From: Ignavibacteria bacterium
GTDB taxonomy: Bacteria > Bacteroidota > Ignavibacteria > Tepidaquicellales > Tepidaquicellaceae
Length of the DNA: 64,000 nt
Reading direction: 5' to 3'
Assembly (NCBI GenBank): GCA_028714695.1
Contig: JAQTLX010000002.1
Coordinates: 186,001-250,000 of the forward strand
This document shows positions 1,454-30,867 of the stretch, piece by piece (the first letter of the stretch is position 1; each line of letters begins with the position of its first letter). The notes under the pieces were generated by a model, which saw only the letters and a list, made by a program, of their open reading frames with translations, ran no database searches and was not told the origin of the DNA. The position numbers and the translations under genes were made by a program.

Positions 1454-1480
1454 AATAAAATATTTTGACAACATTTTTTT
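1454..1480 (+). repeat. 27-nt direct repeat, copy 1 (TTGACA-containing)
   Basis: Bases 1454-1480 are identical to 5594-5620. The shared element ends with TTTTGACAACATTTTTTT and contains both a TTGACA hexamer and the TTTG expected of a Bacteroidota -33 box. It lies upstream of the polymerase-like gene. The second copy lies upstream of the gene at 5672, so a promoter or operator role is likely. A third, partial match of 17 bases occurs inside the gene at 4650-4868. Confidence 0.75.
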
Positions 1481-1486
1481 CAAATG

Positions 1487-1509
1487 AAAAGTTTTTCGAT
1501 ACTATTTAT
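1487..1509 (+). repeat. 23-nt direct repeat, copy 1
   Basis: The 23 bases from AAAAGTTTTTCG to ATTTAT recur exactly at 8729-8751. The two copies sit at the head of the two main phage modules, replication (1649) and head/tail (8995). The GTTTTTCG core resembles the GGTTTCG motif found close to many prophage starts. I infer a shared promoter or regulator-binding site. Confidence 0.75.
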
Positions 1510-1536
1510 ATTATCTCCAAATATTAAATAATATAT

Positions 1537-1584
1537 GGTGTGCAATTTAAAAAGGTCTTCATACACCTAATCCGATTGCACACC
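1537..1584 (+). repeat. Inverted repeat upstream of the polymerase-like gene
   Basis: GGTGTGCAAT (1537-1546) and ATTGCACACC (1575-1584) are perfect 10-base inverted repeats around a 28-base loop, which contains a nested AGGT/ACCT pair. TTAAAAAGG occurs twice, in the loop and just after the right arm. This occupies most of the gap between 1294 and 1648; the rest is AT-rich with two weaker hairpins. It could be an operator, a structured leader or a replication origin. Confidence 0.6.
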
Positions 1585-1615
1585 AGCTTAAAAAGGATTA
1601 TCAAGTATGAAAAAA

Positions 1616-1648: not shown

Positions 1649-2941
1649 ATGAAAATCTATGTTCCATCCAAACTCATCTTTTTTGAAGATATACTTCAGA
1701 AAAATGGATATCAAAAAGAAATAAAGCATCTGGATAAATATCTCTGGCTTATTTCAAAAGTTGCAACTTATTCAATATTCAATAAATCGTCCAAAACTCC
1801 ATCCCTAAACAATGCTTATTTGAGACGAATTATCGGAACAAACAACACCTCCAGAATCAAAAAAATCTTATCTGATTTGAATATCGTCTCAAGTCCAAAA
1901 TCCTGGCAACAGAACAATTATTCAAGAGCATACAATTTAAATCCTGATTATCAATCTCGTCTTACATCCGTCTTTATTAATGATAGAATATCTAAAAATA
2001 TAGAGAAATGGTCTTACTTTGATGTAATAGATAATAATAGAGATATAAATAGAGTAATAAAGAACTATTTCAATCCTTCCCCTTCCCCCCATCCTTATGA
2101 GGACCGATTTTTTAATCTATTTTTGCACTTTTCAATTTCCTTTGAATTTCTGACAATAGAATATGAAGAAGCAGAAAAGTATATAAATGATAATTACAGG
2201 AATGATGAAAATAAAAGAATACATTACTTAGATTGTGTCACTTTTATAAAAGATAAATATTTTTTCAAAAGAACCGATCCAAAAACGGGAAGATTTTATT
2301 CAAACATCACAAATTTACCTCGGGATTTAAGGCAGTTTTTGAGGTATAAAAATCAAAAATTAATAGAAATTGATATTGCAAATAGTCAACCGTTCCTATT
2401 TAATTTGGTAATTGAAGAATATTTAAAAACTGCAAAAACAAGCAAAATAATCGGTCCTCATAAGGATGGTAGGAAGTGGAAGAATAGAGATGAATATAAG
2501 AATATAACCCAGGAAGGAAGGATTTATGATTATTTTAGAAATGAATGGAATAAGGAATATTCACAAAGGAAGACTAGGGACGAAATTAAGGAAACATTCT
2601 TTAAGAAAATATTCTTTTGCACAAATAGAATGAATTATCTATATCCAGAATCTAAACTATTCAAAAAACTATTTCCTAATGAATATAAAATTATTATAGA
2701 AACAAAGAAGAATGATTATAAATATCTGGCTTATAAACTTCAGAAACTAGAAGCTGAAATGATGATTTATACAATATGTAATAAATTGATTATGGATAAT
2801 TCAAACATCGGATTATTTACGTTACATGACAGCATTTTAACAACTCAATCTAATATTGATAAAGTAAAGGTGACGATATTGGATGAATTTAAAAAGAATT
2901 ACGGATTAGAACCAAAACTAAAAATAAAGGAGGCTGCATGA
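1649..2941 (+). CDS. Minimal family-A DNA polymerase-like replication protein
   Basis: This 430-residue protein carries the signature series of family-A polymerases in the right order. TGRFYSNITNLPRDLR (213-228) resembles the TGRLSS..PNLQNIP.R element. IEIDIANSQP (239-248) resembles motif A with catalytic Asp242. R310-D-E-I-K314-E-T-F-F resembles the motif B finger helix R...K...(F/Y). LHDSIL (392-397) resembles motif C, with His393-Asp394. No 3'-5' exonuclease domain and no full thumb is evident, and the first 200 residues are of unknown fold. T7-type RNA polymerases also use HDS in motif C, so template and product type cannot be fixed. I infer the phage's own replication or repair polymerase. 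It overlaps the HNH gene by four bases and has a GGTTTCG motif 24 bases upstream. Confidence 0.72.
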   Translation: MKIYVPSKLIFFEDILQKNGYQKEIKHLDKYLWLISKVATYSIFNKSSKTPSLNNAYLRRIIGTNNTSRIKKILSDLNIVSSPKSWQQNNYSRAYNLNPDYQSRLTSVFINDRISKNIEKWSYFDVIDNNRDINRVIKNYFNPSPSPHPYEDRFFNLFLHFSISFEFLTIEYEEAEKYINDNYRNDENKRIHYLDCVTFIKDKYFFKRTDPKTGRFYSNITNLPRDLRQFLRYKNQKLIEIDIANSQPFLFNLVIEEYLKTAKTSKIIGPHKDGRKWKNRDEYKNITQEGRIYDYFRNEWNKEYSQRKTRDEIKETFFKKIFFCTNRMNYLYPESKLFKKLFPNEYKIIIETKKNDYKYLAYKLQKLEAEMMIYTICNKLIMDNSNIGLFTLHDSILTTQSNIDKVKVTILDEFKKNYGLEPKLKIKEAA

Positions 2942-3429
2942 TGAACTCAAATGAATGGAATAATCTGGAAGAGAATCTAAAACAGAATTTGAAAGCAATG
3001 GATTATAAAGAATATTTAAAAACTAATCATTGGCAAAGAATAAGAAAAATGATTGTTAAGAAATATAAATATTGCCAAATATGTAAATCAAAAGATAAAT
3101 TGAATGTTCATCATAATTCTTATTTAAATAGAGGTGAAGAAAAAGAAACAGATTTGATTTTATTATGTAATGATTGTCATTCATTATTTCATCATAAAAT
3201 GGAACAGCAAAAACAATTCAAATTAGTTGATAGAAAAGAATTATATAATGATGATTATTACAATCCAGAAGAAAAATGTGCTCTTGAAAAGGTTGGTGAA
3301 AAATATTATAAAACAAACACAAGCACACCAGGTGAGATAAGGGCATGGAATATTTTATTAGAAAAACATAAAAAAGGTTTGTTAAATCTTAATGAAATGT
3401 TTAAAGGAGGACAAAAACATGAAAAATGA
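2938..3429 (+). CDS. HNH endonuclease
   Basis: The zinc-bound HNH core is clear: C46-x2-C49, the HH pair at 58-59 preceded by a beta hairpin (KLNVHHNSYL), then C77-x2-C80-H81 and the FHH at 84-86. This is the layout of phage and homing-type HNH nucleases that cut DNA with one metal ion. The N-terminal YLKTNHWQRIRK stretch is typical just ahead of the first zinc ligands. The start overlaps the stop of the polymerase-like gene (ATGA) and is preceded by AAGGAGG, so the two are translationally coupled. It is distant from the terminase and portal, so a replication or recombination role is more likely than packaging, though that is inference. Confidence 0.85.
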   Translation: MMNSNEWNNLEENLKQNLKAMDYKEYLKTNHWQRIRKMIVKKYKYCQICKSKDKLNVHHNSYLNRGEEKETDLILLCNDCHSLFHHKMEQQKQFKLVDRKELYNDDYYNPEEKCALEKVGEKYYKTNTSTPGEIRAWNILLEKHKKGLLNLNEMFKGGQKHEK

Positions 3430-5289: not shown

Positions 5290-5580
5290 ATGTTTGACTT
5301 TTTAGAACAAGGCGAAAATATTTTGAAAACCAAATTGTATCGTATAATTAAAAGATATTTTTCTAAAGATTTTTCTAAAGATGACCCAGGTTTATTTTAT
5401 GCTTGGATTTTAAACATTAATAGTGATTATCCAGATTTTATTTATAACATTGATTGGATGCAATTGTTGAATATGAAGTCTCAATATAACACAGAAATGT
5501 ATTATAAAGACATAGTCTTAAGTCCGATTTTAGATAATATATCGGATAAAATTGAAAAATACTGCCCCAAATCGGACTAA
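5290..5580 (+). CDS. MFDFLE-type small protein, member 1 (96 aa)
   Basis: This is the first of four small prophage proteins that begin MFDF(L/I)E followed by a variable residue and Gly (5290, 6399, 6727 and 7247). The rest is acidic and aromatic-rich (PGLFYAWILNINSDYPDFIY, IDWMQLL), probably a small helical fold. It has its own promoter-like motif and a GGGAAC leader before the ATG. No known family is recognised. Such clusters of short, paralogous, rapidly diverging phage genes often encode host-takeover or anti-defence factors, but nothing in the sequence proves this. Confidence 0.75.
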   Translation: MFDFLEQGENILKTKLYRIIKRYFSKDFSKDDPGLFYAWILNINSDYPDFIYNIDWMQLLNMKSQYNTEMYYKDIVLSPILDNISDKIEKYCPKSD

Positions 5581-8709: not shown

Positions 8710-8728
8710 ATTTATTTTTTTCCAATTA

Positions 8729-8751
8729 AAAAGTTTTTCGATACTATTTAT
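8729..8751 (+). repeat. 23-nt direct repeat, copy 2
   Basis: Identical to 1487-1509. It lies 20 bases after the winged-helix gene and at the head of the non-coding leader of the structural block, consistent with a promoter or activator-binding site used twice in the prophage. Confidence 0.7.
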
Positions 8752-8791
8752 TCTATGGACGGTTCCTGCAGACCTGTCCTGTTTGCAAACA

Positions 8792-8994: not shown

Positions 8995-9798
8995 ATGGAA
9001 AATAAATTAGGCAGTCAATATTTTCGATATAAAGAAATAAATGATGCATCCCGCTCAATAACACACTATATAAGCACACCGCAAGTCGATAGTTATGGTG
9101 ACATTATGAAACAAGAAGGAATGGACGACAGCAAGTTTAAGTATGTATTATGGCAGCACAGTTTAGGCATGAGTTTTTTTAGTGATATTGTTCCAAAACC
9201 ATCTGATTTAATTATAGGAAAATCCGATTGGAGAAGAATCGATGAAATTGGAGTAAAGGCAAAAACAGACTTTTATGATACCACATTAGGCAGAGACGTT
9301 TATAATTTTAATAAATCTGGTGGACTTAAATATTGGAGTATCGGTTGGAAAGAAAAAGAAGAACCAGTTGTAGAAAAAAGAGATAACAAAAAAGTCAAAA
9401 TATATAACAAATGGTTTTTATATGAATATTCGTCAGTTTTGTATCCTGCCAACGAAGGAGCAGCAAATATTGAATTAATGACTGAAATGAAAAATGATGC
9501 AAAAGATGAATTATTCAAAAAGAGTATTGACGATTATTTGGCATTTGATAAAATAAAAACTTTTATCACTGGAAATATAAACGATACAATGAAACAAGAA
9601 ATTATTGACGAATTGAAAAAAAATATGACTGATGAAAATGAATATATCAAAAAAGAAGCATTTGAAGAATTGAAAAAAGAACATCAGAAATTATATGATT
9701 TGGTCAATAATTCATATATCCAGAAACAAAAAAGAGAAGTCAATCTAAAGAAATTAGATGATTTGGTTGACAATATTTTAAAAAACAAATTGAAATAA
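8995..9798 (+). CDS. HK97-type prohead protease with scaffold-like tail
   Basis: The first 170 residues match the HK97 prohead maturation protease family: an N-terminal strand set ending in a VDSYGDI turn, the catalytic-type His55 in VLWQHS, and Ser115 in YWSIGW, then YEYSSVLYPANEGA, the family's S..PAN element. These proteases cut the capsid protein and themselves during head maturation. The last 90 residues are charged and helical (EELKKEHQKLYDLVNNS), as expected of a fused scaffold domain. It lies directly upstream of the major capsid gene, the classical order. It has its own promoter-like motif. Confidence 0.92.
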   Translation: MENKLGSQYFRYKEINDASRSITHYISTPQVDSYGDIMKQEGMDDSKFKYVLWQHSLGMSFFSDIVPKPSDLIIGKSDWRRIDEIGVKAKTDFYDTTLGRDVYNFNKSGGLKYWSIGWKEKEEPVVEKRDNKKVKIYNKWFLYEYSSVLYPANEGAANIELMTEMKNDAKDELFKKSIDDYLAFDKIKTFITGNINDTMKQEIIDELKKNMTDENEYIKKEAFEELKKEHQKLYDLVNNSYIQKQKREVNLKKLDDLVDNILKNKLK

Positions 9799-9808
9799 GA
9801 AGAAATAA

Positions 9809-9878
9809 CCTTGTCATGCACAATAGATTGTGTAAGACTATTAGTCCGCTTATGGCGGGGGGAGATAGTGACATAAGG
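9809..9878 (+). ncRNA. Three-way-junction RNA structure in the capsid gene leader
   Basis: CCTTGTCA (9809-9816) can pair with TGACATAAGG (9869-9878) with a two-base bulge, closing a junction. Inside it lie a hairpin CACAA/TTGTG with a TAGA loop (9819-9832) and a stem ACTAT/ATAGT (9837-9869) enclosing CCGC/GCGG. The element lies between the protease stop and the promoter-like motif of the capsid gene. Its role is unknown: transcript-end structure, processing site or regulator. Confidence 0.4.
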
Positions 9879-9917
9879 ATTGAACAAGATAAGATTATAT
9901 TCATCATTCAATTATAA

Positions 9918-9926
9918 TAGGTTTTG
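9918..9926 (+). promoter_or_regulatory. Putative phage promoter motif (TAGGTTTTG)
   Basis: Preceded by TATAA, it ends 25 bases before the ATG of the capsid gene. It matches the Bacteroidota -7 consensus TAnnTTTG with one inserted T. Confidence 0.55.
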
Positions 9927-9951
9927 ATGAATATTTAAAATAGGAAAAAAA

Positions 9952-11070
9952 ATGAGTAACCCAGAAAATAAAGATAATAAAGAGTTAGAAAGCATTTCAA
10001 AAGAAGACGTCACAAAAATAGTTGACGAAAAATTGAAATCCGAAATTCAAGCAAAGAAAGATTTACTTGAAAAAGCAGAACAAGAAAAGAAAGCATTGCA
10101 AGACGAAATCAAGAGAATGAAAGAACTTGACGAAGTCGACCGTAAAAATATTAAAATTGGTGAACCAAGAAATAAGAAGTCAGAAGATTTTAAAGAATTT
10201 TTATTGAAAACAGTTCCTGACATGAGAATTAAAACTGGTGTTTCCGTTCCAATTCCAGCACAATATTTTAATGAAATCGTTCCGTCTCCTGGCAGAACAA
10301 ATATATTGTCACAATGTAAGTATCAAGGTATTGCACAATCAACACAAATGTATATCACAAAAACCAAAACAGCTCCAACAGGAAACTGGATGGGGTTGAC
10401 AGGTGGTGGAACTGATACAACTTTATCAGCTGGTGCAGAATCAGTTACAATGGATTGTTTCACGGTCAAAATACCGATTTACGATTATCAAATGATTAAT
10501 CCAAATTTTGATCCTCTTCAATATATGAAGGATGAAGTTGCAATCGCAATTCCAAAAGCGTGTGCAAAACAAGCATTAGCAGGCACAGGCAGTCCTTTTA
10601 CGGGTCTCTATGGTTCATCTGATGTAACATTCAACGCAATCAGTGCAACAGGTGCTATTACAAATGTATCTCTTACTGATTTAAGAAATATGGTTGCTAC
10701 AGTATATCCAGATTTTAGAAATAACGATTTAAAATGGTATGTTGACATGAGTGAAGAACAAGCACTTTATGCAGTATGTGACGCAAACAATAGAGTTACT
10801 GATGTTACAAATGGTGTAAGTAGAATATTAGGTTATGAAGTCGTTCCTTTACCAACAGGAATTTTAAATCCTGCAACAACTTCTACTACTGGTTCAAAAC
10901 ATTTTGTTTTAGCAAATTTGAAAGAAGCAGTTGAGTATGCAGATTTAGGAACATATAAGATTGAAGCATTCAGAACAACTTCGGGTTTAACAACTTGGGA
11001 AATTTATTACTGGATGGGATTAGGTGTCCGTAATGGATATGCAGCAGCTGGTGCAAAATGTCATGCATAA
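9952..11070 (+). CDS. Major capsid protein, HK97 fold
   Basis: The 372-residue protein follows the HK97 plan. A charged helical delta domain of about 75 residues (KAEQEKKALQDEIKRMKELD) would be removed by the upstream protease. The shell domain follows, beginning near VSVPIPAQYFNEIV and continuing with TDTTLSAGAESVTMDCFT, the spine-helix region (DPLQYMKDEVAIAIPKACAK) and the A-domain (YEVVPLPTG). It forms the icosahedral head. It has its own promoter-like motif and structured leader, as expected for the most strongly expressed virion gene, and is followed by a perfect hairpin at 11106-11129. Confidence 0.93.
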   Translation: MSNPENKDNKELESISKEDVTKIVDEKLKSEIQAKKDLLEKAEQEKKALQDEIKRMKELDEVDRKNIKIGEPRNKKSEDFKEFLLKTVPDMRIKTGVSVPIPAQYFNEIVPSPGRTNILSQCKYQGIAQSTQMYITKTKTAPTGNWMGLTGGGTDTTLSAGAESVTMDCFTVKIPIYDYQMINPNFDPLQYMKDEVAIAIPKACAKQALAGTGSPFTGLYGSSDVTFNAISATGAITNVSLTDLRNMVATVYPDFRNNDLKWYVDMSEEQALYAVCDANNRVTDVTNGVSRILGYEVVPLPTGILNPATTSTTGSKHFVLANLKEAVEYADLGTYKIEAFRTTSGLTTWEIYYWMGLGVRNGYAAAGAKCHA

Positions 11071-14382: not shown

Positions 14383-16890
14383 TTGGCAAATAATACAAAT
14401 ATTCCCATAACAGTAACTACTCAAAGTGACGTAAAAGGCTTGAGAGACTTGCAAAAAGCAAGTAACGATGCAAGAGACGCATTTATCGCATTATCCAAAT
14501 CTGGAACAGCAAGTGCGGAAGATATAAAAAATGCAGGACAAAAATATTCACAGGCAAAGGGTGAATTAGATAATATGAAGTCGGCACTTAAAGACGTTGC
14601 TGGAAATACTAAAATGTCATCTGCACAACTTTTGGAGTTTGGCGAAAATTTGACAGTTATTGCGGCTGGAATTGAACATGCAATATCGAAAATTATTGAG
14701 TTTACCAAAAGAGTTTATGAAATGGCAATTGCTGGTTCCGAAGAAGAAAACATGAGAAAGCATTTCGATGAAGTGTCGGGGTCGGTTGAAAATGCAAAAA
14801 TAAATTTTGAGTTATTACAAAAGGCAAGTTCTGGTCTATTTACGGAACGTGAAATATTAAGTTATAATAACCAGATGACAGATTTAAACTTCACTGTTGA
14901 ACAATCCGCAAAGTTTTTAGATATAGCCACAACAAAACATCATGAATTAGGCATATCAGTATCTGAAGCAAATAATAGACTTGTTAGATTTTTGGAAACA
15001 GGAAATAAAAGAGGTCTCTTTACATTAGGTATGGATATTTCAGATATAAATAAAAAAATATTTGAAATGTCTGGACTTACAGAAAAACAAGTTAAGGCAT
15101 TAGATTCAGAACAACAAATCAGATTAAGAAGTGATGCAGTATTACAATTATATGGTAGAAGTATTGATGACATAAATAATAAACAAAAAACAACCGCCGA
15201 TATTTTAAAAAATGTTGGTGTTGTGTTTGATAATGCAAAGGATAAAATAGGGGCATTTGTTAGTGGTGTATTAGCAAAAATTGTAACCGCATTAGGATTA
15301 ACAAATGAAAAAATAGCTACGTTTATAATCATTCTTGGTGGAGCTGTGACAGCAGTTCTTGCAATCACGGCAGCAGTCATCGGATTAACGATTGCATTTT
15401 CAGCACTTGATATTGTATCTGGTGGAATATTAATTGCAGTAGGAGTATTAGTTTTACAAGTTGCTGCATTGAGTGCTGTTATAATTACGAATTGGGAAGC
15501 GATAAAGAATTGGTATAATGAACAAGTAAATTTACAAGTTGCAATTAGAAATTTAGAAAAAGCATGGGATAATCTAACAAGCAAATTTGACGGGTTTTCT
15601 TTTGATAAAATTATAAATGCAATAGGAACACTATTTACAAATGCTTTAAATATTGCGGTTAATGCAATAATAATAATGGTAAGAGGACTGCAATTGTTAA
15701 TAGACACGTTTAATTGGTTATATGACAAAATACATTTAGGTTGGCAAATACTATCAAGATTTACTCAATTACTTGCAAATGCAATTCCTCAAACTTGGAT
15801 TAATTCGATTAAAGATGCTATAAACTGGGTAATAGATAAAGTTGATAAAGCGTATAAAGGTCTTAAATATTTAATGGATTTATTGGGAATTACAACAAAA
15901 GTTGACCAAAGTAATTGGGCAACGCAATCAACTAATAATATTGCAAAAAGTGGAATTATACCAGATAAGGTTCCACCTGGAGGAAAAAAAGAAAAAGCAG
16001 ATAAAGAAGATAATCCAGAGCAAATAGAAGCGAAAACATTAGATGCAATAATCAATAAATATAAAGATAAAATCAAATTACTTGATTTAGACAAGTCTGG
16101 TAATGCTGAAATTAGATTTGAAAGACAAAAGGCACTTGAAGATGCTGAAAAAGAATTAGAATTAAATTATTTGTCATTACAATATGATAAAAACAAAGTA
16201 AAGAATTTAGACGAACAAGATAGAATATCAAAAGAAATAAATAAAACTTTTGGTCATTCTGTTCAAGCGAAGAAGCAAGAAACAGAACCATTTGTTTTTG
16301 GTGATTCAAAAGCAAAAAAATTAAGTCCAGCAGATAAAGATTTAAAAGCACAGGAACCAGTTTATGATTATAAAAAAGCGAACGAAAAAGTTCAGGCAAT
16401 AATGGATGTAGCAACACAAACAGTAAATATATTAGGATTAGGCGCAGACTCATTTATAGGGAAAATGATTTCTGGATTTCAACAAGTCATCGGATTGGCT
16501 GATAGTGTTGTAAGTATGCTTGCAAAATTAGGCGCAATCGGTGGAAATGCTGCAAGTGGAGGAATATTTGGACTTGTTGGAAGTCTTTTTGGGTTTGCTG
16601 AAGGAGGTTTCACAGGAAATTTACCAACAAATGCAGTGGCTGGTGTTGTTCATGGCGGTGAATATGTCATAAAAGCATCCGCAGTTACACCTCAAACTAT
16701 ACCACTTTTACAGGCAATAAACGGAGCTAATCCATATTCACAAATTGCAAAATATGCATCAGGCGGTTATGTCAACAGGAGTGTAAATAATAATATCTAT
16801 TTGGCAGGAACATTGGATGGACAAAAATTCCATCAAGTCAATGAAAAGAAGTTTCGTATGATTCAGAACGCAACTATGATGAAGGGGTAA
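14383..16890 (+). CDS. Tape measure protein
   Basis: At 835 residues this is among the longest phage genes, placed right after the chaperones. The start is TTG at 14383, supported by ACGGA upstream and a promoter-like motif 25 bases away. The N-terminal 250 residues are helical coils. Hydrophobic segments follow at about residues 310-375 (IIILGGAVTAVLAITAAVIG, GGILIAVGVLVLQVAALSAV), as expected for the part inserted in the host membrane. The C-terminus has the Gly-rich GFAEGGFTGN, HGGEYVIKASAV and ASGGYVNR elements found at the ends of many tape measures. It fixes tail length and helps DNA entry. Confidence 0.92.
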   Translation: MANNTNIPITVTTQSDVKGLRDLQKASNDARDAFIALSKSGTASAEDIKNAGQKYSQAKGELDNMKSALKDVAGNTKMSSAQLLEFGENLTVIAAGIEHAISKIIEFTKRVYEMAIAGSEEENMRKHFDEVSGSVENAKINFELLQKASSGLFTEREILSYNNQMTDLNFTVEQSAKFLDIATTKHHELGISVSEANNRLVRFLETGNKRGLFTLGMDISDINKKIFEMSGLTEKQVKALDSEQQIRLRSDAVLQLYGRSIDDINNKQKTTADILKNVGVVFDNAKDKIGAFVSGVLAKIVTALGLTNEKIATFIIILGGAVTAVLAITAAVIGLTIAFSALDIVSGGILIAVGVLVLQVAALSAVIITNWEAIKNWYNEQVNLQVAIRNLEKAWDNLTSKFDGFSFDKIINAIGTLFTNALNIAVNAIIIMVRGLQLLIDTFNWLYDKIHLGWQILSRFTQLLANAIPQTWINSIKDAINWVIDKVDKAYKGLKYLMDLLGITTKVDQSNWATQSTNNIAKSGIIPDKVPPGGKKEKADKEDNPEQIEAKTLDAIINKYKDKIKLLDLDKSGNAEIRFERQKALEDAEKELELNYLSLQYDKNKVKNLDEQDRISKEINKTFGHSVQAKKQETEPFVFGDSKAKKLSPADKDLKAQEPVYDYKKANEKVQAIMDVATQTVNILGLGADSFIGKMISGFQQVIGLADSVVSMLAKLGAIGGNAASGGIFGLVGSLFGFAEGGFTGNLPTNAVAGVVHGGEYVIKASAVTPQTIPLLQAINGANPYSQIAKYASGGYVNRSVNNNIYLAGTLDGQKFHQVNEKKFRMIQNATMMKG

Positions 16891-21750: not shown

Positions 21751-23280
21751 ATGCTCGCTCCAGAACAAGAAGAAAAAATCATAAATGCCCTAATTCAAGG
21801 GAAAAGAATTGTTGATTTGCATCCAAAACAAGCCGAGGTTTACGATGCTGAGGAACGTGTTCGTGTGGTATGTGCTGGGTCGGGATTTGGCAAGACGATG
21901 CTGGGAATTTTAATTGCAATAAAAACCGCATTTCAAAAGCCTGGAACAACAAGTGTAATAATATCGCCAACTGATGACCAAGGTAAACGAAATGTTCCAG
22001 ATACATTTAAACAGATTTGGGATTTATTAAAAACTTATGATAAATATTTCAAACAATTCAATACACCAGAAGCAGATGCAGAATTTTTTGCAGATGGAGT
22101 GATAATATTCAAAGTTCCTTATAAAAATAAATTTGGTGTAACAAAATTATTAAAAACAAAAATATTATTATTATCTGGACATAATGCCGATAGAATTAGG
22201 GGATTAAGAATTGACGGTGTGTTTGTATTAGATGAATTAAGTTACATCGAAAATAATGAAAAATTATGGATGACTATTGTTGGAAGAAAATCAGGAAAAC
22301 CAAAAATATTTGCTATATCGACACCGCCAGATAATCACGATTTGCTATATAAACTAATTCAGCAAGGCAAAGAATATAATGATGACGGAACAAAAAATAA
22401 TGATAAAAAAGATGATTTTAAAAGTTGGATTTTTAGAACTATTGATAATCCAACAGATGAAAATATAAAAACCTTAGTAAAAGAAGCAAAAGAAGAATTA
22501 ACAAAAGAACAATTTGAAAGAGAATTTGAAGGAAAATTTGAAAATATTGGAAGCGGAAATTTATGCAAACAATTCAGTAGAGAAAGAAATCTTGTTGAAT
22601 GGAAAATGTTTTCAAACCATCCAATATGTTTCAGTTCTGACTTTAACGTGGGTTGTTGGACAACAATAGCCTTTCAAATTCTTACAAAAGAAGAAATAAA
22701 AGAAAAAGTATTAGATAAAGGATTAATAATTAATAATCATATCCAATATGAAAATTTACAAGATGAAGTCATGTTTGTATTTAAGGAGTGGAAATTAGCA
22801 GGTGTAGACACGTTGGTTCCTGAATTTTGTGAAATAGCAACAAACTATTTATTAGAGATTGGTTATAATGCAAATGAATTGGGGGTGTCTTGGTTTGGCG
22901 ATCCGCACGGTATCCAAAAAAATGTAAATTCAAAAAGGATGGCAAACGGAAGAATAGCAAATTCATGGGATACGATAAGTTTATATTTTCCAGATGTTCA
23001 ATTATACAATGATAAATTTGAAGAACAATTAGACAGAGTAGAGAATTTTAATGCAAAGGTTAGAAATTATTTAGGTAAAACAGGAATATTGATAAATAAG
23101 GATTGTGAAGAATTAATAAAAGATATTGAAAAAATCAGAAAAACACCTGACGGAAAAGGTATCGATAAAACCAGAGAGAAAAAGCCTCTATTTTTAGGTC
23201 ATCTTTTTGATTGTATATCGTATGCGGTTTCTTACCAATGGGAAGTCAATCCAGTGACTCCTGAAATATATTTCGTTTGA
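21751..23280 (+). CDS. Terminase large subunit
   Basis: The ATPase domain is clear: a Walker A motif AGSGFGKT at residues 42-49 preceded by the strand VRVVC, a Walker B-type strand GVFVLDELSYI near residue 160, and a coupling motif AISTPP near 190. The C-terminal nuclease domain has acidic residues in CFSSDFNVG (near 300) and SWFGDPHG (near 385), expected for metal-dependent DNA cleavage. At 509 residues it is of normal length. It pumps DNA into the head through the portal. Here the terminase lies after the tail and lysis genes instead of at the head of the structural block. Confidence 0.93.
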   Translation: MLAPEQEEKIINALIQGKRIVDLHPKQAEVYDAEERVRVVCAGSGFGKTMLGILIAIKTAFQKPGTTSVIISPTDDQGKRNVPDTFKQIWDLLKTYDKYFKQFNTPEADAEFFADGVIIFKVPYKNKFGVTKLLKTKILLLSGHNADRIRGLRIDGVFVLDELSYIENNEKLWMTIVGRKSGKPKIFAISTPPDNHDLLYKLIQQGKEYNDDGTKNNDKKDDFKSWIFRTIDNPTDENIKTLVKEAKEELTKEQFEREFEGKFENIGSGNLCKQFSRERNLVEWKMFSNHPICFSSDFNVGCWTTIAFQILTKEEIKEKVLDKGLIINNHIQYENLQDEVMFVFKEWKLAGVDTLVPEFCEIATNYLLEIGYNANELGVSWFGDPHGIQKNVNSKRMANGRIANSWDTISLYFPDVQLYNDKFEEQLDRVENFNAKVRNYLGKTGILINKDCEELIKDIEKIRKTPDGKGIDKTREKKPLFLGHLFDCISYAVSYQWEVNPVTPEIYFV

Positions 23281-25085: not shown

Positions 25086-25919
25086 TTGCGTTTTATCAAT
25101 GACAAGTATTACACCAATCCAGAATTAGCAAAGGAACTAATAAACAAAACAGTTGTAATATTACAAAAGAAAGAAAATATAAACTTTGACGAATTAGAAA
25201 TTATTGAATGTTCTGCTGGTTCTGGTTCTTTCTCAAATCAAATTCCAGACTGTTTAGCATTTGATTTATTTCCAGAACATCCTTCAGTTATTAAACAAGA
25301 CTTTTTAAAACTGGATATTCCATATTCAAAGAATAGATTAATCATATCAAATCCTCCTTTTGGAAATTGTAGTTCAAAAGCCCGTGCATTTATAAAGAAA
25401 GCAAATTCAATTTCTGAATATTATGCCTTTATATTACCAGCATCATTTATGATTAATCGAATGAATTTAAATATTCTTTATTCAGAACATTTAGGAAATA
25501 TAATGTTTGACAATGGCAAAGATGAATATAAGAAAGTAAATTGTTGCTTTATAATCTATAAAAGAATAACTAAAATAGAATATAAGAAATATAAGTTAGA
25601 AGACTTGAACATCTGGGAATTAAGAAAGAACATCCCTTACAATCCAGATTATGATTATAAAATGCTGAATTGGAATGGCGGTATTAATATCGGTAAAGTA
25701 TGGACTCAATCAGATGACTATTATCATTCAAAGAAATTATATCTATATATAAAAATACATAACCAATCATTAAAAGGTAAAATCTATAAAGCACTATTAG
25801 ACTGCAAACCTAATCTAATACAGCCACGTATCAATAAGGGTTTGTATCTATCAGCTCCTTCAATCCACACCAGAGAATTATACCAGTATCTTTTATCTGA
25901 AATTAATGAGTTAAAATAA
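25086..25919 (+). CDS. DNA adenine N6-methyltransferase (orphan)
   Basis: The AdoMet-binding motif I is IIECSAGSGSFS (residues 39-50), and the catalytic motif IV NPPF sits at 89-92 in ISNPPFG, the N6-adenine form. The N-terminal YYTNPELAKELI is typical of phage adenine methyltransferases of this kind. The start is TTG at 25086 with AAGAGAG upstream and the GGTTTC motif at the usual distance. No partner endonuclease is next to it, so it is an orphan enzyme, most likely protecting phage DNA from host restriction or timing expression. The target sequence cannot be read from the protein. Confidence 0.85.
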   Translation: MRFINDKYYTNPELAKELINKTVVILQKKENINFDELEIIECSAGSGSFSNQIPDCLAFDLFPEHPSVIKQDFLKLDIPYSKNRLIISNPPFGNCSSKARAFIKKANSISEYYAFILPASFMINRMNLNILYSEHLGNIMFDNGKDEYKKVNCCFIIYKRITKIEYKKYKLEDLNIWELRKNIPYNPDYDYKMLNWNGGINIGKVWTQSDDYYHSKKLYLYIKIHNQSLKGKIYKALLDCKPNLIQPRINKGLYLSAPSIHTRELYQYLLSEINELK

Positions 25920-26003: not shown

Positions 26004-26867
26004 ATGGAAACAGACGATAATTCTGAAGTTGAAATTCTATATAAATACAAACCAATAAATAAATATACTTTAAGTTCTTTAATCAATAATGAATTTTATT
26101 TTGCGTTTCCTAATGAATTTAACGACCCGTATGATTCTGAATTATATTCTTATAGGGAAGGCACTCCAGAACAATGGGATAAATATTTAAAAAATATTAA
26201 TATTGAACCAGAAATAAAAGAAAAGTATCAAAAGTTAATCCATTTTATGAATTATGATAATGAATTAATTAATAGTTCGCTGATTTCTGGTAATGCTGGA
26301 AGCGGTGAAAGATATAAGAAAAGTATAATGGTTAATTGTTTTGCAAAGAATTATAATAAAATATTAATGTGGAGCCATTATGCCGAACATCATAAAGGAA
26401 TATGTATTGGATACAAAACAAAAATAATCCGAGATGGGATGTTTTTTGAAATGGAAGAGAAAATGTTGGAACGTGAAAGTGATGAACAATATACGGTTCC
26501 GATTATTAAAATTATATATAGCGAGGAATATCCGCAAGCTTATAATCCATTGGACCCAGAAGATTATAAAAAAGATTTTTTTAGATTTATTAAAACTAAA
26601 TATATAGATTGGAAATATGAAAATGAATATAGAAGTTTCATATTTTGTAAGGATTATAATAAGCAACTATTCAAATTTAAAAAAGAAATACTATCTGAAA
26701 TTATATTTGGTGAATTTACTTCAAATGAAGATATAAAATTAATAAAGAACATTGTTGATATGAACTATATTAATAAAGGTATTCCAGTAACATATCATAA
26801 AGCGTCTATTATCAGAGGGAAATATCAATTGGATGTAAAACCATTTGACTTCCAGAACTTAAATTAA
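26004..26867 (+). CDS. DUF2971 family protein (possible cargo or defence gene)
   Basis: The 287-residue protein shows the ordered DUF2971 features: LYKYKPINKYTLSSLINNEF, YFAFPNEFNDPYDSE, CFAKNYNKILMWSHYAEHHK followed by GICIGYK, an IKIIYSEEYP strand, and FIKTKYIDWKYENEYRSFIF. The invariant FNDP(Y/F)D, (L/M)MWSHYA..H.G(I/V)C and W.YE.E(Y/W)R clusters are all present. The biochemical role of DUF2971 is not established to my knowledge; members occur on mobile elements. It follows the methyltransferase by 84 bases and ends the plus-strand run, so both may be lysogenic cargo. Confidence 0.82.
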   Translation: METDDNSEVEILYKYKPINKYTLSSLINNEFYFAFPNEFNDPYDSELYSYREGTPEQWDKYLKNINIEPEIKEKYQKLIHFMNYDNELINSSLISGNAGSGERYKKSIMVNCFAKNYNKILMWSHYAEHHKGICIGYKTKIIRDGMFFEMEEKMLERESDEQYTVPIIKIIYSEEYPQAYNPLDPEDYKKDFFRFIKTKYIDWKYENEYRSFIFCKDYNKQLFKFKKEILSEIIFGEFTSNEDIKLIKNIVDMNYINKGIPVTYHKASIIRGKYQLDVKPFDFQNLN

Positions 26868-29292: not shown

Positions 29293-30354
29293 TCAGAATG
29301 CTACTTTCATTTTGTTCATTCCGTCAAGTAATTCAGATGTATTTGAATGGAGATAAATCATGCTCGTCTGAATTGATTGATGCCCGAGGATTATTTGCAA
29401 TCCATATATATTATTGGTTGCTTTTAGATAATTTACAGCAAACGAATGTCTGAATGAATGAAAACACAAATCAGAATTTAAATTTAATTGTTTTCTTAAT
29501 CGTGTGAAACAAGTTGACGCATAATCATCATTCAATTTCGATCCAGATTTGCAGGTGAAAACATAGTTTTTAAAATTATCCTTTTTATACATTTCTATCA
29601 ATAAACTATTTAAATTATCCTTAATAGGAATATATCTATTCTTTCTGGATTTTGTTTTGTGGTTTTCTTTGTTGATAACTTTTATTTGTTTATTTATAAA
29701 ATCAACATCGGACCACTGCAAATGGGTTAATTCTGCTTTTCTCATGCCTGTAAGCAAGGCAGTTTTGCAAATATTAAGGAATAGGGGATTTTGTATGTTC
29801 TCAAATATATATTTTATTTCTTCATCCGTAAAATTCAATCTTTCTTTTTCACAATTTTTAAACAGTTTTATTTTTCCTGCAATATCAATTGTAATTAATT
29901 CCCAGAATTTCAATTTATTGAGATATGCCTTCAGATTTCGCAAATGATGGTTTATCGTGCTTTCACCAAAGTTAGAATTAAGCAAGAATCGTTTAAATTG
30001 TTCAATTTGTAAAGCAGATAATTTATTTAGATTTAGATTATTCCCAAAGCATTTTTTCAAATTATCGAATACAAAATTTACATTATATTTGTTCTTATAA
30101 TTATTAGTGCAATAATAATCATATATCTTATTATAGCATTCTTTCAAAAAAGCAGCATCCGAATCGTCGACCATCATTAGATTTACAGCTTTGGATGTTA
30201 CTAATGATTTAACTGGAGGCGTAAAGGTTTTTAATTCAGTTTTCGCCAATTCTTCATCTGCTGTATGTGTATTCCATCTATTATACTTACCAGTTAATTC
30301 ATTCTTGTATCTTATCCAGTAAGTTCCTGTAGATTTCTGGAATGATAAAAACAT
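29293..30354 (-). CDS. int: Tyrosine recombinase (phage integrase)
   Basis: The catalytic set is complete: Arg205 in TGMRKAELTHL, His299-x-x-Arg302 in FHSFRHSFAV, His325 in LGHQSIQTSM and the nucleophile Tyr334 in IYLHSN. The N-terminal part includes a SAM-like core-binding domain (residues about 65-155, IEQFKRFLLNSNFGESTINH). At 353 residues it fits site-specific phage integrases. The gene points away from the attachment site at 30569, about 215 bases from its start, the usual place of int. It joins phage and host DNA at the tRNA-Thr tail and, with a partner, excises it. Confidence 0.92.
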   Translation of the reverse strand: MFLSFQKSTGTYWIRYKNELTGKYNRWNTHTADEELAKTELKTFTPPVKSLVTSKAVNLMMVDDSDAAFLKECYNKIYDYYCTNNYKNKYNVNFVFDNLKKCFGNNLNLNKLSALQIEQFKRFLLNSNFGESTINHHLRNLKAYLNKLKFWELITIDIAGKIKLFKNCEKERLNFTDEEIKYIFENIQNPLFLNICKTALLTGMRKAELTHLQWSDVDFINKQIKVINKENHKTKSRKNRYIPIKDNLNSLLIEMYKKDNFKNYVFTCKSGSKLNDDYASTCFTRLRKQLNLNSDLCFHSFRHSFAVNYLKATNNIYGLQIILGHQSIQTSMIYLHSNTSELLDGMNKMKVAF

Positions 30355-30568: not shown

Positions 30569-30614
30569 ATTCGTAATCAGCAGGTCGGGGGTTCAATTCC
30601 CCCCGCTAGCTCAG
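30569..30614 (+). other. attR: 3' half of tRNA-Thr(CGT)
   Basis: The 46 bases run from the anticodon loop (TTCGTAA, anticodon CGT) through the T-arm (GGGGG, loop TTCAATT, CCCCC) to the acceptor strand CGCTAGC and the discriminator. No 5' half precedes it. This is the usual footprint of integration into a tRNA 3' end, next to the integrase gene. The intact tRNA is expected at the other prophage end, outside the window. Confidence 0.82.
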
Positions 30615-30659: not shown

Positions 30660-30744
30660 ATTCGTAATCAGTCCGCCACGGCGGAGGGGTTCAATTCCCC
30701 CCGCTAGCTCAGAAAAGAGAATCCGAAAAGGGTTCTCTTTTTTT
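30660..30744 (+). repeat. tRNA-Thr tail plus terminator, tandem copy 2
   Basis: ATTCGTAATCAG, the T-arm, the CGCTAGCTCAG end and the terminator hairpin recur, but the variable-loop region is replaced by TCCGCCACGGCGGA, a short palindrome. The copy directly follows copy 1. Confidence 0.85.
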
Positions 30745-30757
30745 ATGTACTAATGCG

Positions 30758-30867
30758 ATTCGTAATCAGTTCGCCCGCCCAACGAGACGGCGGGCAGGCC
30801 TTGGCGGAGGGGTTCAATTCCCCCCGCTAACTCAGTAAAGAGAATCCGAAAAGGGTTTTCCTTTTTT
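30758..30867 (+). repeat. tRNA-Thr tail plus terminator, tandem copy 3
   Basis: This copy has a longer GC-rich insert in the same place (about 30770-30808, including CGCCCGCCC and GGCGGGC arms), one change in the acceptor strand (GCTAACTCAG) and a degenerate terminator. Confidence 0.82.

Follow-up and report, generated by a model that had tools for sequence, protein, structure and literature searches.

The small polymerase gene (P0001) studied here, in a stretch of 64,000 nucleotides of a Bacteroidota chromosome that we call the window, probably encodes a TV-Pol-type family-A DNA primase-polymerase that is predicted to act as the replication initiator of its prophage. The reading is supported directly by a family-A fold with its catalytic residues, an N-terminal winged helix, kinship with TV-Pols and an element that has no second recognisable replication enzyme. 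A proposal of 2008 saw TV-Pols as nearly minimal ancestors of both Pol I and T7 RNA polymerase. The only one known as tested is the Pol I-like CcPol, which needs a partner to prime. The protein described here is small, exonuclease-free, equipped with its own DNA-binding domain and the product of the sole recognisable replication gene, which makes it possible to test directly whether a single-chain enzyme of the A family can start synthesis without a primer. The kind of enzyme is already described, and what stands out is the fusion to a winged helix, the setting with a single recognisable replication gene and the very wide, unannotated distribution. A first-pass annotation had recognised a minimal family-A-like polymerase within a prophage, mixing DNA-polymerase-like with T7 RNA polymerase-like features, and this description stands. 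The primase-polymerase role it had listed among several is now the favoured prediction, supported by the TV-Pol kinship.

Table 1. Features of the polymerase gene, its protein and the surrounding prophage, with positions in the window.
Feature	Position	Strand	Basis
CDS of the 430-aa TV-Pol-type polymerase (P0001)	1649..2941	+	ORF call and 103 non-redundant homologues
N-terminal winged-helix domain, residues 1-110	1649..1978	+	Separate AlphaFold2 model and VIA comparison
Thumb helices, residues 149-201 (H149-167, H172-182, H187-201)	2093..2251	+	AlphaFold2 model
Template hairpin element, residues 207-233; invariant R215, R228 (95%)	2267..2347	+	Alignments and AlphaFold2 model
Motif A, EIDIANSQP, residues 240-248; D242 metal ligand; Q247 at probable sugar-gate position	2366..2392	+	Alignments and fold
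Fingers helix motif R310xxxK314xxxF318	2576..2617	+	Alignments; in register with PolA R/K
LQxxE motif (Q365, E368), common to TV-Pols as LLQ..E	2738..2752	+	Family alignment and TV-Pol profile comparison
Motif C, TLHDS, residues 391-395; D394 metal ligand	2819..2833	+	Alignments and PolA profile comparison
41-nt element; second copy (88%) at 8716-8756, before the structural operon	1474..1514	+	Repeat search
Inverted repeat with perfect 11-bp arms, TGGTGTGCAAT-N28-ATTGCACACCA, 5' of the polymerase gene	1536..1585	.	Repeat search
HNH endonuclease overlapping the polymerase gene end	2938..3429	+	PHROG 119 E 1e-10
Prohead protease and major capsid protein	8995..11070	+	Family searches
Tail tape-measure protein	14383..16890	+	Family search
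Terminase large subunit; sole Walker A ORF of the prophage part scanned	21751..23280	+	Named from sequence
Tyrosine integrase	29293..30354	-	Pfam PF00589 E 1.7e-30
Right attachment repeat, 45 bp, identical to tRNA-Thr(CGT) 3' end	30569..30613	+	Repeat search

The reading frame runs uninterrupted from ATG to TAA, and the opposite strand over the same interval is rich in stops. The four motifs follow one another in the order originally proposed, from TGR at residues 213-215 with NLP.R extending to R228, through E-IDIANSQ with D242 and R310-DEI-K314, to T391-LHDS with D394, and their key residues are near-invariant in 103 sequences. Two of the motifs were corrected in detail. The fingers motif is present with the spacing RxxxK rather than R....K, and within TGR only the Arg is conserved, the first position being mostly Tyr and the Gly occurring in 67%. 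The invariant columns of a 13-member alignment of bacteria and phages are P6, L74, R215, R228, D242, N245, S246, Q247, Y293, K314, F338, P343, K353, Q365, E368, T391, H393 and D394. Among 103 non-redundant members, conservation is complete (100%) at R215, Y293, K314, E368 and D394, reaches 99% at D242 and 97% at Q247 and H393, and is likewise at least 96% at S246 and Q365. Position 310 is Arg in 70% and Lys in 23% of this set. Conservation across both sets indicates that the polymerase motifs are strongly constrained and not due to chance.

The right-handed palm, on which the first-pass annotation had made its polymerase reading depend, is present. The AlphaFold2 model of the protein with 53 viral relatives (pLDDT 85.9, pTM 0.82) has the family-A palm, fingers and thumb, and the best PDB matches of the model in Foldseek are all family-A polymerases (E 7e-6 to 2e-4). 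The VIA-align 2 Z scores are 16.1 for Bst Pol I, 15.9 for T7 DNA polymerase and Pol theta, and 15.8 for yeast mitochondrial RNA polymerase. With Z of 15.8-16.1 for both kinds of enzyme, the fold alone has no power to separate DNA from RNA synthesis. The structural alignment to Pol I and its like starts near residue 123 in most rows, and the hairpin strands E207-209 and E216-218 carry the conserved R215. Neither the Pfam search nor the model has a trace of an exonuclease domain or room for one, in agreement with the original description. A fold search of viral models returned the Zamilon virophage replication protein (E 2.8e-4), and a barbavirus protein was also among the matches.

The N-terminal 200 residues, previously considered of unknown fold, are now resolved into the winged helix, a linker at residues 112-148 with low-confidence stretches, and the thumb helices. 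A separate AlphaFold2 model of residues 1-128 is a winged helix (pLDDT 85, pTM 0.79), and this DNA-binding domain is kept in all family members. Four RepA_N-type initiator domains, 4pt7, 4pql, 4ro3 (the PLE RepA domain; PMC7145576) and 5kbj, are among its closest structural matches (Z 6.8-7.5 over residues 1-103). The best RepA N-terminal domain matches are 4pt7 and 4pql (Z 7.5, residues 1-101, 89-90 residues), with Fur at 7.6 and MarR similar. The hhalign profile comparison with RepA_N proteins is not significant (P 0.33), hence the likeness is a resemblance and not a demonstrated homology. Membership of RepA_N was rejected on this value and on the lack of a match to the RepA_N profile (PF06970) among 50 N-terminal domains.

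Current family libraries overlook these proteins. Searched alone, the protein has no match in Pfam, PHROGs, PDB sequences, the viral contig set or the genome contig set, and its family is unrecognised by Pfam, PHROGs, NCBIfam, PADLOC and PDB sequences. Pfam PF00476 (DNA_pol_A) is not found in the protein at E up to 10 or in 12 relatives at E up to 1. The family alignment profile recovers only a chance PadR match to the N-terminal part among PDB sequences. Profile comparisons are more informative. The family profile aligns with that of PolA in register at RxxxK, Q365 (Pol I 'piQg') and HDS/HDE (P 6e-4). A small TV-Pol profile was built from MAP_030 of Microcystis phage Ma-LMM01, a Polaromonas homologue and a Calothrix plasmid homologue, the last two lying near recombinase genes. 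MAP_030 was chosen here as the Ma-LMM01 TV-Pol by transposase adjacency and motifs, the 2008 paper naming the phage. In hhalign, the family matches this profile with P 3.8e-4 over 260 columns spanning the wing, hairpin Arg, motif A and LLQ..E, and PolA matches the same profile with P 0.18. The family match emerged only with the small alignment, as MAP_030 as a single sequence gives P 0.13, and Ma-LMM01 has no match to the family alignment profile. T7 RNA polymerase, represented by a single sequence, gives P 0.16.

The features shared with TV-Pols are the conserved hairpin Arg, two palm Asp, the fingers RxxxK, a bi-helical thumb, the lack of a nuclease domain and the profile similarity. TV-Pols are also described as having a conserved fingers Asp, which we could not place from that description, and residues 249-352 contain no invariant Asp. 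Of the two alternative genomic settings of TV-Pols, the association with element recombinases is found, and the D5 helicase is lacking in the prophage. Judged by its sequence, the protein is a TV-Pol-type member of family A, in a branch missed by current family libraries. The suggestion of a new branch is therefore not upheld, as the protein belongs to a kind that was set out in 2008 (PMC2579912; TV-Pol profile P 4e-4), where the argument for a reduced, near-ancestral primase-polymerase had already been put forward.

A direct repeat of 45 bp from tRNA-Thr delimits the 33.4-kb prophage that houses the gene. The left copy is the 3' end of tRNA-Thr(CGT) itself (L100, 7160-7204), about 2.84 kb left of the window. 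Following the integrase, copies of the tRNA-Thr 3' end shrink from 45 bp through 26 bp (30686-30711) to 21 bp (30809-30829), which suggests repeated integrations or remnants at the site. Beyond the structural genes of Table 1, a portal was named from its sequence. The HNH protein is encoded separately and is a nuclease of the homing type, unlike the exonuclease of Pol I. Among the prophage ORFs within the window, the Walker A scan found the terminase alone and no helicase. Family searches of the prophage proteins, which covered part of the small ORFs, found no helicase, primase or SSB, which leaves the polymerase as the sole recognisable gene for replication. A loader or SSB could be hidden among some twenty small ORFs of the prophage that have no annotation. 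The host chromosome encodes a separate, complete 960-aa PolA, hence the enzyme is not the PolA replacement that had been considered. Four small ORFs of the early region (at 5290, 6399, 6727 and 7247) have the common start MFDF[LI]ExG, encoded by a 27-nt DNA repeat, and then diverge. This start is a putative repeated N-terminal tag of the early region. At the right end of the prophage, a cargo-like 287-aa ORF (26004-26867) is flanked by a methylase-like gene (25086-25919) and the integrase.

More than 110 viral contigs, phages of up to 735 kb among them, contain relatives, as do integrative elements of Bacteroidota. Gathered by profile, family members were found in 7/197 related genomes and 15/395 genomes of the phylum, as well as in 113 IMG/VR contigs, six huge-phage records (595-735 kb) and 27 named Bacteroidota or bacterial contigs. 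In the family tree, the protein groups weakly (0.79) with those of the huge phages L002 and L017, and then (0.76) with those of related bacteria. Directly after the TV-Pol gene, these two huge phages encode a second Pol I-like protein of 430-460 aa (PF00476 matches at L002:7773-8429 in LR756511 and L017:7722-8456 in IMGVR_UViG_3300014202_001521). Such a second gene scores above the PF00476 cut-off in these two lineages and in none of ten other TV-Pol huge-phage records. A Tenacibaculum member (L137:9523-11580) is extended at the C-terminus to 686 aa. One alignment member matches a group I intron-type homing endonuclease (TIGR01453 E 8e-13), most likely this Tenacibaculum protein. A single Hymenobacter plasmid carries a relative, too few cases to judge the protein as a plasmid Rep.

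Among cellular relatives, 25/43 distinct loci have a tyrosine integrase within about 6 kb, often less than 100 bp away. The background in ten of those genomes is about 80 integrase matches in about 43 Mb (roughly one per 0.5 Mb), from which chance proximity would account for a few percent. Several cellular relatives adjoin restriction-modification genes, and in minimal elements the gene adjoins the integrase and is the sole recognised gene for replication. A flavobacterial module (L146, L149-L153, L161) runs integrase, polymerase, AAA_24 ATPase and DUF3871 protein, the last typed in L146, and DUF3871 may belong to the flavobacterial TV-Pol element type. A Mom-type DNA modification protein (L101:7594-8277, PF25680 E 3e-42) is encoded near a TV-Pol and integrase in a genome from the same bacterial family. 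The protein might instead be an accessory repair or gap-filling polymerase, in a prophage copied wholly by host machinery via an unrecognised small loader. The host does supply a full replisome and PolA, priming by the protein is only predicted, and huge-phage relatives have room for a separate replicase, two of them with the adjoining second PolA-like gene. Retention of the gene at the integrase of minimal elements, the N-terminal DNA-binding domain kept throughout and the lack of a nuclease or repair partner nevertheless make a repair role unlikely.

For the preferred reading as a replication initiator, the winged helix would bind an origin within or close to its own gene, with the inverted repeat 63 bp before the start codon as a possible site. 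The 10-mer of this repeat is unique in the 64 kb (shuffles give 0.08), and the RNA fold has a z of -3.0. The repeat is the best candidate binding site, and an operator or 5' UTR hairpin would fit it just as well. The nearby 41-nt element is a probable phage promoter or operator. AAAATATTTTGACAAC, found four times with at most one mismatch (at 1457, 4760, 5315 and 5597; expected 0.03) and twice inside small ORFs, is probably a promoter element. On the opened template, the palm would synthesise a short DNA strand with the help of two metal ions at D242 and D394, and the host helicase and replisome would then extend this strand. The enzyme would use dNTPs, as suggested by the bulky Q247 at motif A +5, in a register taken from sequence and not from superposed coordinates. 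This position is Glu710 in Pol I and Gly in T7-like RNA polymerases. An initiator is favoured by the RepA-like winged helix, the integrase association and the matches to TV-Pol and PolA profiles. Against it, the prophage lacks the D5 helicase pairing that underlay the prediction of TV-Pols as primases, CcPol alone only extends primers and no OB-fold partner was identified in the prophage. The RepA_N likeness is structural only, with Z tied with Fur and MarR, and repeat searches near the polymerase gene found no iteron array.

The same winged helix could in principle read a promoter while the palm makes RNA, as in a phage RNA polymerase or RNA-making primase of the T7 or N4 kind. HDS is the T7 RNA polymerase form of motif C, the mitochondrial RNA polymerase scores on par with DNA polymerases (Z 15.8), the 41-nt element precedes both the polymerase gene and the structural operon, and an RNA polymerase role was also proposed for divPolA2 (PMC11348598). 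However, 97% of members have the bulky Gln in place of the Gly of T7-like RNA polymerases at motif A +5, and a winged helix of 110 aa makes up the N-terminus, without T7 promoter-recognition domains. The PolA (P 6e-4) and TV-Pol (4e-4) profiles also match better than the single T7 RNA polymerase sequence (0.16), and cellular elements pair the gene with an integrase and not with a virion operon, all of which makes RNA synthesis improbable. A defence or abortive-infection polymerase carried as cargo, comparable to Abi reverse transcriptases, would fit the restriction-modification genes beside several cellular relatives, but is highly improbable given the position at the integrase, whereas cargo genes vary, the abundance in huge phages and a PADLOC search that found no defence-polymerase match, only a fused homing endonuclease and two weak matches.

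The closest known systems are the TV-Pols of the Ma-LMM01 element, virophages and Bacteroidetes elements (Iyer, Abhiman and Aravind 2008, PMC2579912). The prediction that these are primases came from their pairing with D5 helicases. The 2008 members included Bacteroidetes genera, and integrase-bearing islands with restriction-modification genes were also described (PMC2579912), the same neighbours as found here. Shared features are the minimal palm, fingers and thumb without a nuclease, the hairpin Arg, two palm Asp, RxxxK, a D-x-x-x-[SC]-[QH] motif A, LLQ..E and element recombinases. The prophage differs in having no D5-like helicase, motif C is HDS here and HDG in the two TV-Pols compared, and the N-terminal domain described as uncharacterised helical in 2008 is modelled here as a winged helix. 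CcPol with MP makes DNA primers from dNTPs, whereas CcPol alone, which retains E and F at the gate positions, only extends primers (Bebel 2020, PMC7581432). Like the PolA-SSB primases of SCC-type islands (Rice 2023, PMC10061031), it shares with the present protein membership of family A, the lack of an exonuclease, location on an integrative element and a role as DNA primase, the last only predicted here. CcPol is however far more similar to Pol I, depends on the OB-fold partner MP for priming and shares its operon with a helicase, and in the prophage neither partner was identified.

The divPolA2 proteins (PMC11348598, 2024), such as AUR84708, have no recognisable thumb, and barbaviruses carry a regular PolB. 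They share with the protein a standalone palm protein of 430 aa, a separate N-terminal domain, the hairpin GR..NLP..R and the motif order (profile P 6e-4). They differ in motif A (YDFKAFE) and motif C (FDE), and the protein has thumb helices and aligns with Pol I from residue 123. The family HMM does not pick up divPolA2 (E 0.039, below 4 bits), and a pattern scan of the viral contig set found no relatives of AUR84708. RepA_N initiators (pSK41, pTZ6162, PLE RepA) carry an N-terminal winged helix of the same order and size, but have no polymerase domain and no significant sequence relation to the protein (P 0.33). Pipolins with piPolB are integrative elements encoding a primer-independent polymerase of family B (PMC7385651). 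They resemble the cellular relatives in the hallmark pair of integrase and self-priming polymerase, the latter only predicted here, and differ in the polymerase family. We tentatively propose, as a possibility of lower confidence, that joining an initiator-type winged helix to a TV-Pol palm creates a one-protein initiator, primase and polymerase, with which a temperate phage, huge phages and small integrase-bearing Bacteroidota elements might start replication at their own origin with no element-encoded helicase, as an A-family counterpart of pipolins.
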